Made by a program: the position numbers and the translations under genes. The notes beneath the pieces are model-generated. The model searched no databases. It had not been told where the DNA came from and was given only the letters and a program-made list of their open reading frames with translations. 5,701 nucleotides of DNA, taken from positions 1-5,701 of the forward strand of contig CAMLMF010000194.1 of NCBI GenBank assembly GCA_946480995.1. The letters are read 5' to 3'. Shown here piece by piece: positions 1-2,955 of the stretch (positions within the stretch are counted from its first letter, which is position 1; each line of letters opens with the position of its first letter). This DNA comes from an uncultured Bdellovibrio sp. Its GTDB lineage: Bacteria > Bdellovibrionota > Bdellovibrionia > Bdellovibrionales > Bdellovibrionaceae.

Positions 1-2955
1 TAAGACATCGCTTTCAGCCAAAGCCTTGCGTGACTCTGGTGAAAGTTTTTGTACTTCCAGACTGCCGTCGCGAACTTTATCAGAAATTTCGCGGGCTAAC
101 TTAACACCCAAGTTTAAAGTGACATCGCGATCATGGCTTAGCATTTCGTGGAAATCCACCGTCGGCCAACGTTTTGTTGAAGCATAGAATTGATTCACAG
201 TGTCCTCTAAGCTCATCAATTTTCTTGAATCAAACTCTTTTTGCAAAACTGCGCGCGAACCTGGTGTTAGGTTTCTCCAGAAGCCTTCTGGTGAAACCGA
301 CATCGCGTGGCGGACTAATTCTGACAGTGGTCCTTGTGGCACTGTCGCATCTGTCGGTGACTTTCCTACATTCGTGATAAAGGCATTCGCTGCCTGTGCG
401 ACCTCAGTCACGTTTAAGATTTTTAGGTCAAAGTTTTCAATGATCGAGCGTGGCACCGGACCGATGTTTGAAAAGAAGCCACGGAATTCTTTCACCAAAG
501 CCATCATCTCTGGACTGTTCAGCATGGCGATTTCGGATTCGCTCAGACGCTTTTTTGCACGCTCTGCCGGCACCAGTTTTTCGATGGCGATCATTCGATC
601 ACACCATGACCACGTAGATTTTAAATTCCCCGTGAAGAATGGATACGAGTAAGCTTGGAACACAAACTGATTTAAAGCGATGTCAATTTCGCGATTTTCA
701 GATGTAAAGCGTAAGTCTTTTAAGATCGTTTGCAGCTCTTGCACCTTTGCCATGTTGATTTCGCCGCGTTGACCAAGGCCTTTTGCTGTTTCCGCATTTA
801 AACGAATGAAGGCTTCCATTGCGACGTTCAACTTATCGATGGTTTTAACCATTTCGTCACGTTGCGTGCCTTTGCGCATGCCTGTGTACAAGCGACCTTC
901 AGGCAGCAGACGAGGCAAATGACCCAAACGATTCATAACCAGATCTTTAACATCTTGATAGCTGGCGCGATCGACTTCTTGACCGAAGAACATAATGACT
1001 GGATTTGCTTTATTTAAAGCCAGACGCACAACACGGCCAGGGCCTTGGATATTTTCAGGAAACTTAACATATTTTTTAAATGATAAATACCAACCCGCTT
1101 GCGGGAAATCCAAACCCTCTCGAATTGTGCCGACGATAGCGTCGATTTTACGACCGTGAAAAGGTGTCTGGTCGCGGAATGCTGTATAGGCGTGGCCGCG
1201 TTCTTCCACGGAAAGTTTTTGCAGCGACACATAGTTTTTACCAGTTAAGTCTGACAAAAGTTTCGCAACAGGTTCCGCATCACGCGGATAGGTGTGGATC
1301 ACACCAGGCCCATGATTGTTGGTCATTGATAAAATATCTGGCCAAATTTCTTTTAAGCGCTCTAGGTTGACGCTGGATTGAGTCCCAGCTTCGTCGCGTT
1401 TAAATATTGTCGCGAATTTAAAACCGCGTTCTTCAGGCTTGTATTGAATAGGGGCTGAAGCGTTGATTTCACCGCGTTCCCAAGCGCGAGCATATTGATC
1501 TGCCATACGCATCCACTCTAAAGCAGTGTCCGAATCTTTATCTTGAACGGCTTTCTTTAGATGTTGTTGTGCCCAAACTCCCGGTTTATCAACAGCCGCC
1601 CAATAAACGCCGTCATAAAGTTCAGCGGTTCGTTGCGTGCGCGTGATCGGCGAAGCAGTAACACCTAAAATATCTAAGGCATCGGCGCGTACAGATCCTG
1701 CGCGATCTTGCTCTGCGATCTTAAGAGCGGCCTTCATAACGGAAGTGAAAGTTTCACCTGTTGCATTATGGGCTTCATCAACATGCAGTCCGCGAGTGCG
1801 GGCCATTAAAGACTCTTTGCTCGCCGCTTCTGGAGCTCGAGCTGCTAGAGTTGGATAACTTGTGAAAAGAACGACAGGAACTGGGGATTGATCCACGAAT
1901 TCGATTAATTTTGCCGTGGTCATGCTTTCTGAAAGCTCACCACCCCATTGCACCAAACGGTATTTTGCGGGTCCTACTTCGGTGTGCAGTTGTGAACCGA
2001 TATTACGAGACAGCTCTGCAGTTAAGTCGGGAGTTTTCGTAGCAACGACGATTAATTTTTTAGAGCCCATATTGCTTAACTGATCCACGATCGCATCGCC
2101 AAGCACGCGGGTTTTACCGCTGGCCGTTGGCGCAACAACCAAGAGTGAGCGCACTTTGGCGCGCAATTGTGGATCGGCATTGATTTCGCCACGCACGGCT
2201 TTGGCTTCAACTTGGGTTGGACGACTGAAAGTCGCTTGTCCATCATGTAATAAAGAAGCAATCGACATCACCGTCGAGCTAGAACTTGCGATGTACTTGT
2301 GCATAGCACTTCCCGCAATCAACGCATAAATAGATCCAGAAGAAATTGTATCCAACTGAGCCTTTGTTTTCATGGTCGCAGGAAGTTCCAGTAACTGATA
2401 AGAAGAAGAGCCCTCTGTCACCAAGCGGACCGGAGCCACAGCAGTGCGACCTTCCACCCAACGAACGACGATAGGAAATGCATCGCCCTCATGGTGAATG
2501 GTCAGCGTAGAATCATTCGTCTTAGTCATTTTAACAAAGGGACGGGAAGTTCCGCGGGCACCGACAACACGGGCAAACGGGCCTTCGACAAAAGCAATCA
2601 TAGTTCCTGATAAGTCTGAAAGATCGACCTTAAGGGAATGCCCACGGGAGCGTTCGCGCATGGCGTCCGTAACTTTTTGCGCGAGTGTGCCGTCTTGTTG
2701 GCGCAAGCGTGCGATTTCTAAATTCAATTGATCTTGGACTTGAAGAGGTGGTTTTTTAGAACTGAACTCTTTTTCTAAAAGAGTCATGTCTTTGCGCGAA
2801 CTATTCAGCGGTGTTGTTGGAGCCTGTTCAAAAAGTGCTAAGACCTGACTGCACTGAAGTTGTGCATGGGCTGGAGCGGCACCAAACAGCATAAGAGCTG
2901 CGGCAGCGAACGTTGCAAAATGAGACTTTTTAAATGGAGTGTATGTGTTTTTCAT
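1..2955 (-). CDS. Exported DEAH-box superfamily 2 helicase (3' end outside window)
   Basis: An open frame of 985 codons without a stop runs off the left edge. The start at 2955 is the first ATG after an in-frame TAA at 2985-2983; the upstream Shine-Dalgarno is poor. Residues 1-31 form a Sec signal peptide: lysines at 2, 9 and 10, a hydrophobic core at about 13-27, and AHA before predicted cleavage at 31/32. The SF2 motifs follow in order: RPTQ (245-248), resembling the conserved Arg/Gln before motif I; Walker A APTASGKT (275-282); DEAH (393-396); TASP (433-436); GVIHTYP around 553; GTIREGLD (609-616); and QGPGRVVR (637-644). These are the complete ATPase and helicase signatures of the type III restriction Res/DEAD-like group, so ATP-driven nucleic-acid translocation or remodelling is likely. 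Residues 108-192 look beta-rich, and the part after about 665 looks helical; I recognise neither. No nuclease motif is evident. The substrate is unknown, and export is predicted, not shown. Confidence 0.88.
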   Translation of the reverse strand, partial: MKNTYTPFKKSHFATFAAAALMLFGAAPAHAQLQCSQVLALFEQAPTTPLNSSRKDMTLLEKEFSSKKPPLQVQDQLNLEIARLRQQDGTLAQKVTDAMRERSRGHSLKVDLSDLSGTMIAFVEGPFARVVGARGTSRPFVKMTKTNDSTLTIHHEGDAFPIVVRWVEGRTAVAPVRLVTEGSSSYQLLELPATMKTKAQLDTISSGSIYALIAGSAMHKYIASSSSTVMSIASLLHDGQATFSRPTQVEAKAVRGEINADPQLRAKVRSLLVVAPTASGKTRVLGDAIVDQLSNMGSKKLIVVATKTPDLTAELSRNIGSQLHTEVGPAKYRLVQWGGELSESMTTAKLIEFVDQSPVPVVLFTSYPTLAARAPEAASKESLMARTRGLHVDEAHNATGETFTSVMKAALKIAEQDRAGSVRADALDILGVTASPITRTQRTAELYDGVYWAAVDKPGVWAQQHLKKAVQDKDSDTALEWMRMADQYARAWERGEINASAPIQYKPEERGFKFATIFKRDEAGTQSSVNLERLKEIWPDILSMTNNHGPGVIHTYPRDAEPVAKLLSDLTGKNYVSLQKLSVEERGHAYTAFRDQTPFHGRKIDAIVGTIREGLDFPQAGWYLSFKKYVKFPENIQGPGRVVRLALNKANPVIMFFGQEVDRASYQDVKDLVMNRLGHLPRLLPEGRLYTGMRKGTQRDEMVKTIDKLNVAMEAFIRLNAETAKGLGQRGEINMAKVQELQTILKDLRFTSENREIDIALNQFVFQAYSYPFFTGNLKSTWSWCDRMIAIEKLVPAERAKKRLSESEIAMLNSPEMMALVKEFRGFFSNIGPVPRSIIENFDLKILNVTEVAQAANAFITNVGKSPTDATVPQGPLSELVRHAMSVSPEGFWRNLTPGSRAVLQKEFDSRKLMSLEDTVNQFYASTKRWPTVDFHEMLSHDRDVTLNLGVKLAREISDKVRDGSLEVQKLSPESRKALAESDVL
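2863..2955 (-). other. Sec signal peptide region of the helicase
   Basis: Codons 1-31 of the helicase encode a basic n-region with Lys2, Lys9 and Lys10, an Ala/Leu/Phe-rich core (ATFAAAALMLFGAA) and a c-region PAHA followed by Gln. The small residues at -3 and -1 (Ala29, Ala31) fit signal peptidase I. The nearest cysteine, Cys35, is preceded by QLQ, which is not a lipobox, so lipoprotein processing is unlikely. There is no twin-arginine motif. The placement is directly visible; actual cleavage is an inference. Confidence 0.82.

Follow-up and report, generated by a model that had tools for sequence, protein, structure and literature searches.

Helicases are textbook cytoplasmic ATPases. RadD (YejH), for example, is a cytoplasmic DNA-repair ATPase with zinc-binding cysteines. 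We analysed 5,701 nucleotides from an uncultured Bdellovibrio sp. (contig CAMLMF010000194.1 of assembly GCA_946480995.1; this whole stretch is called the window), the minus strand of which encodes the first 985 residues of a superfamily 2 (SF2) helicase that begins with a predicted Sec-type signal peptide. In this protein and its relatives, one polypeptide combines ATPase and helicase motifs under strict conservation with an N-terminal export signal that is conserved as well, and bacteria of the Bdellovibrio lineage, which includes well-known predators of other bacteria, probably send helicases into another compartment, perhaps that of their prey.

The window protein differs from each of the described systems that it resembles. 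The RadD model (NF053632) was absent from its two weak NCBIfam matches, the zinc-binding cysteines of RadD have no counterpart in the 29 of 31 family members that hold one to three cysteines in total (one other holds four and one six), and the flanking domains of RadD and the window family differ. Likeness to the HsdR and type III restriction helicases consists of a ResIII (PF04851) match barely over the cut-off and of HsdR at the top of the Foldseek list; unlike these enzymes, the window protein has an export signal and no recognised nuclease domain, and the other genes of the window include no methylase or specificity gene. From SF2 helicases of the RIG-I/FANCM/Hef type it differs in being bacterial and, by prediction, exported. 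The Bdellovibrio nucleases Bd0934 and Bd3507 are reported to carry signal peptides and to be secreted outside the cell (PMC7925074). They are thus signal-peptide proteins for nucleic acid outside the predator, a role that for the window protein we infer; they are nucleases, whereas the window protein is a motor of the ATPase type with no match to a nuclease. The word 'helicase' does not occur in the main text of PMC7925074 or PMC12546842, and a search that had most subscription journals outside its reach turned up no paper on a helicase described as exported, secreted, periplasmic or extracellular. The helicase core is known; what appears to be new, judged from sequence, is the repeated export and the common N-terminal domain.

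The five SF2 motifs that the earlier note had read in the window protein (I, II, III, V and VI; Table 1) were all confirmed at their residue positions, and each was kept in 31/31 aligned family sequences, the window included. Two RecA-like domains are present, as expected of an SF2 member. The Pfam cut-offs were passed narrowly (DEAD, 28.6 bits against 26; ResIII, 23.9 bits against 22.5), indicating a diverged helicase. The earlier description of the helicase as complete holds for its core, not for the gene, which is cut at the window edge: from the ATG at 2955, the minus-strand frame extends through 985 codons and reaches base 1 before any stop codon. Among 5.8 billion proteins searched, with 7996 candidates scored, we found 30 relatives of 1037-1109 residues, which share 39-99% identity with the query across 91-100% of its length; searching by profile recovered the same set. 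The family carries six organism names (Bdellovibrio twice, Bdellovibrionales twice, Bdellovibrionaceae, and one 'Proteobacteria bacterium'). One member, P0007, comes from an isolate, Bdellovibrio sp. HCB2-146.

The signal-peptide-like N-terminus that had been noticed in the helicase frame is present and proved to be a trait of the family. Nearly all rows of the alignment showed a brief, predominantly positive segment, then a hydrophobic core with a small-x-small site, and the signal regions had little sequence identity to one another. In the shortest members the first conserved residue has only a signal peptide ahead of it; in P0023, for instance, the invariant cysteine (Cys35 in the window protein) is residue 20. 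Signals were scored with a home-made rule that asks for a positive n-region, a 10-residue uncharged core, and then a -3/-1 site or a lipobox. In its final version, the rule was passed by 30/34 members of the window family (the 31 aligned sequences plus L007, L016 and L017) and by 17/17 members of a second helicase family, described below. Among control SF2 helicases of the same genomes, 3/25 passed if every start up to residue 60 was considered and 0/25 if the first start was used; among internal methionine positions of the family proteins, 13/818 passed. Controls were taken, as longest frames, from 30 loci that represent 74 DEAD-family matches across seven genomes, and five of the 30 (frames open at the 5' end) were excluded from the final test. 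Fisher's test of both families against the controls gave p 4e-12, a value that is indicative only, as sequences within families are not independent. The second-family set leaves out L069 and L088 (start not visible), L068, L070 and L074 (repeats of one gene), and a paralogue found later, L092:5383-8478, in which a signal-like segment starts only past residue 60 of the longest frame; L090 was counted, although Pfam shows no helicase domain there.

The four failures in the window family bear on the choice of start codon. P0015 failed by an n-region net charge of 0; P0001, P0012 and P0028 are the three of 30 database entries that begin inside the signal. Such entries are what one would see if the upstream starts were wrong and the helicase were cytoplasmic, truly beginning past residue 31. 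P0001 and P0012 are, however, database truncations, with an upstream signal in frame in the near-identical window DNA and in L004, respectively, and P0028 looks truncated. P0001, the nearest entry (99% identical, 1038 residues), has its start called 21 residues downstream of the ATG at 2955, and between that ATG and the in-frame TAA upstream there is no further ATG, GTG or TTG. Furthermore, the invariant Cys35 demands an earlier start, and no methionine is conserved from Cys35 to the N-terminal domain. Homologues starting consistently past residue 31, which the earlier note had named as evidence against export, were not found. We regard a wrong start as extremely improbable and export of the window-family helicase as very likely, to the extent that sequence can tell.

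A hydrophobic segment by itself would fit an uncleaved signal anchor, holding the protein in the inner membrane, as well as a signal peptide, and AlphaFold2 predicted a helix at residues 10-25 with low confidence. This alternative is weakened by small-x-small sites after the hydrophobic core in 26/31 rows and by a clear lipobox-like site in P0030 (P0027 and L017 come near). In addition, a positive n-region would place the helicase outside even if it were anchored, and we consider an anchor distinctly unlikely. The residue preceding Cys35 varies (Q, R, A, V, L, K, E, P), and most members therefore have no lipobox. At L048:17355, L053:12176, L057:13258, L094:612-3590 and L099:655-1302, FQNC(S/G/T) directly follows the hydrophobic core of signal-like N-termini; this recurrent motif is possibly an atypical lipobox of the lineage.

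We further searched 368 genomes of the phylum to which G002 (from a Bdellovibrionales record) belongs, scoring at most two candidates per genome, so that misses are possible. At E 1e-20 the window family query hit 8/368 genomes, and two of these matches were weak. One of the weak matches, L013 (1062 residues), matched 18/368 genomes at E 1e-12 when used as query; four of these 18 are genomes that carry the window family. Thus the window family occurs in 6/368 genomes and a second family in 14/368, and both are accessory genes. No homologue was matched on phage, plasmid or viral contigs at the sensitivity of the searches made, and PADLOC, which covers anti-phage systems, gave no full-length match, only seven partial ones of 11-16 bits within residues 263-400.

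The second family (L013, L014, L071-L073, L075-L081, L086, L087, L089, L090 and P0032) resembles the window family in its signal peptide, N-terminal domain and SF2 core, and differs in a QRxGRxxR-type motif VI and in varied C-terminal additions. Profile comparison of the two families gave E 4.3e-38 over window residues 115-668. The N-terminal domain alone matched between families with a probability score of 95.6 and E 1.2e-8, compared with scores of at most 0.7 in ten column-shuffled controls, and no similarity between the two C-termini was detected by profile comparison. The common unit is therefore signal peptide, N-terminal domain and helicase core. The N-terminal domain itself had no Pfam match; HsdR has a PD-(D/E)xK nuclease domain at its N-terminus, but the model of the window protein's domain found only weak matches in the PDB, none at E<=0.001. 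In the second family, C-x(2-5)-C precedes Walker A in 10/15 aligned rows, that of L072 falling in the signal region, and a close cysteine pair lies in the N-terminal domain of 9/15 aligned members (e.g. CGPNC, CGANC), where it could form a disulphide. The gene of L090, seen also as L100:1068-3716, encodes a signal-bearing protein of 882 residues with a partial-length match to the second family (67 bits) and no Pfam helicase domain. L092 carries two adjacent helicase paralogues (1534-5061 and 5383-8478).

Since the ATPase residues are kept, an exported helicase should meet ATP and nucleic acid at its destination. A lineage that repeatedly exports such helicases implies an external compartment holding both, and the prey cytoplasm, or the contents of the bdelloplast, would be the one within a Bdellovibrio-type predator's reach. 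The precursor would pass the inner membrane via Sec, its signal would be cleaved near AHA/Q (where a few relatives have a lipobox-like site), and the mature enzyme would be set free or displayed outside its own cytoplasm. In prey it would track along and open DNA or RNA, aiding exported nucleases or removing bound proteins. On balance we lean towards the window protein being a Sec-exported SF2 helicase or translocase, with a RadD/ResIII-like core, that meets ATP outside its own cytoplasm, most plausibly in prey; that it acts on prey nucleic acid is moderately likely. Export, as the earlier note had proposed it, is supported by a signal found again and again across two helicase families that have diverged; what the note added, that the protein could be delivered to prey and help to digest nucleic acid there, is conjecture. 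Known nucleases explain the dismantling of the prey chromosome and RNA only in part (PMC7925074), and the helicase family gives named, testable genes.

Several points weigh against this proposal. The periplasm has no ATP, and delivery to prey would therefore require a further step beyond Sec, in which the helicase would have to pass the outer membrane and then the inner membrane of the prey. Sec carries unfolded chains, so that a protein of 1000 residues must refold outside. A single marker of the type II secretion system scored above the cut-off in 2/7 genomes, which settles nothing, and the rarity of both families means that they are not core predation machinery. The signal rule was adjusted twice: its strict version was passed by 22/31 members and had no control run, and the second version by 27/31 members versus 4/30 controls. 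Action in the predator's own periplasm or envelope, for instance in DNA uptake with another energy source, would share the export evidence and suit an accessory distribution. The lack of ATP there argues against it too, as do the window neighbours, which are not competence genes, and we judge it very unlikely.

Walker A is altered in 2/15 second-family members (GKG, GKM), a further point against a motor that works outside the cell and one that would suit a different kind of exported protein, either an ATPase that is stimulated by nucleic acid and uses up the ATP of the prey, or a nucleic-acid binder on the predator surface. The evidence for export is identical for such a protein, and the lipobox-like sites of a few members would fit it. 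Against it, five motifs, including the arginines of motif VI, are kept in 31/31 sequences of the window family, beyond the need of ATP binding alone. We consider it unlikely, and prefer the prey-acting helicase. In the helicases with the altered Walker A, L078/L091 and L079, DE[AV]HH is intact; from their sequences these are perhaps ATP-independent members.

Cysteine content was of less help. The 31 members of the window family hold two cysteines in 18 cases, one in six and three to six in seven, with a median of 1.9 per 1000 residues versus 8.4 in the control helicases. Mann-Whitney tests on cysteine gave 6e-8 and 2e-4, values that are indicative only, the family sequences not being independent. 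Of the cytoplasmic proteins encoded in 400 kb of genome G171, 11 have at least 700 residues, and none of these lay at or under 2.0 per 1000. The medians per 1000 residues in the same 400 kb were, however, 6.6 for predicted exported proteins, 9.6 for lipoproteins and 8.9 for cytoplasmic proteins, and 3/30 control helicases had 1.7-2.3. For these reasons the low cysteine content, striking as it is in the window family, is a weak hint of export.

The C-terminal additions of the relatives suggest, at the level of sequence, that the substrate is DNA. L091:3604-6855 (minus strand, genome G254) is one unbroken frame of 1083 residues with a signal-like N-terminus, an SF2 helicase whose Walker A is of the altered GKG form, and then a sigma-70 factor. 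Pfam found sigma-70 region 2 at 48.2 bits (cut-off 24) and region 4 at 28.2 bits (cut-off 24.1), the sigma-70 superfamily model scored 73 bits (cut-off 42.9), and residues 621-894 scored 118 bits with the RpoH model, under its equivalog cut-off of 323; comparison with solved RpoH, by sequence, gave E 4.3e-14. Should this fusion be exported, it would suggest a transcriptional takeover of the prey by redirecting prey RNA polymerase. L087:1162-3173 (plus strand; the same as L096:2937-4948), in which the contig ends within the gene, has a C-terminal winged helix-turn-helix (27.1 bits, Pfam cut-off 21.9). Tandem repeats follow the helicase, by eye, in L075, L076:658-3156, L086/L092 (L092:1534-5061 and 5383-8478) and L093:1-2097; they resemble, to the eye, phage-integrase repeat units, and Pfam gave no match to repeats of that type in these C-termini. 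A wider but doubtful proposal is that the Bdellovibrio lineage owns a diversified set of exported helicases that serve to commandeer prey nucleic acid or take it apart, with signal, N-terminal domain and core kept and the C-terminus exchanged; the window protein would then be the cysteine-poor DEAH/QGPGRVVR branch of that set.

Table 1. Features of the helicase gene in the window
Feature	Position	Strand	Remarks
SF2 helicase gene, first 985 codons	1..2955	-	ATG at 2955; 3' end beyond the window
In-frame TAA upstream of the start	2983..2985	-	27 nt before the ATG
Sec-type signal peptide (predicted)	2863..2955	-	residues 1-31; positive n-region, hydrophobic core, AHA/QLQC
Cys35	2851..2853	-	invariant in 31/31; usually 3-4 residues past the likely cleavage site
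N-terminal domain, helices and strands	2221..2793	-	residues 55-245; common to the second exported helicase family
SF2 helicase core	922..2238	-	residues 240-678
Walker A (APTASGKT)	2110..2133	-	residues 275-282
Motif II, DEAH	1768..1779	-	residues 393-396
Motif III, TAS	1651..1659	-	residues 433-435
Motif V, GLD	1108..1116	-	residues 614-616
Motif VI, QGPGRVVR (arginine finger motif)	1024..1047	-	residues 637-644
C-terminal region, all-helical	1..888	-	residues 690-985, continuing past the window

The remaining genes of the window lie on the plus strand. Divergent from the helicase gene, 3111-3446 encodes a small cysteine-rich protein with CWC and DUF5522 domains. It is followed by a stand-alone peptidyl-prolyl isomerase of the PpiC/parvulin type (3456-3728; 90 residues, no obvious signal peptide), by a 270-residue protein (3851-4663) whose N-terminus is signal-like and whose DUF3187 match stays under the cut-off, and by a methyl-accepting chemotaxis protein with a four-helix-bundle sensor, truncated by the window end (4674-5699). 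Beside a helicase relative, at L001:222-1745 and 1705-2874 (minus strand), lie two proteins with signal-like N-termini and a cysteine soon after the signal (APLC, AGQC), one of which has a lipid-desaturase domain.
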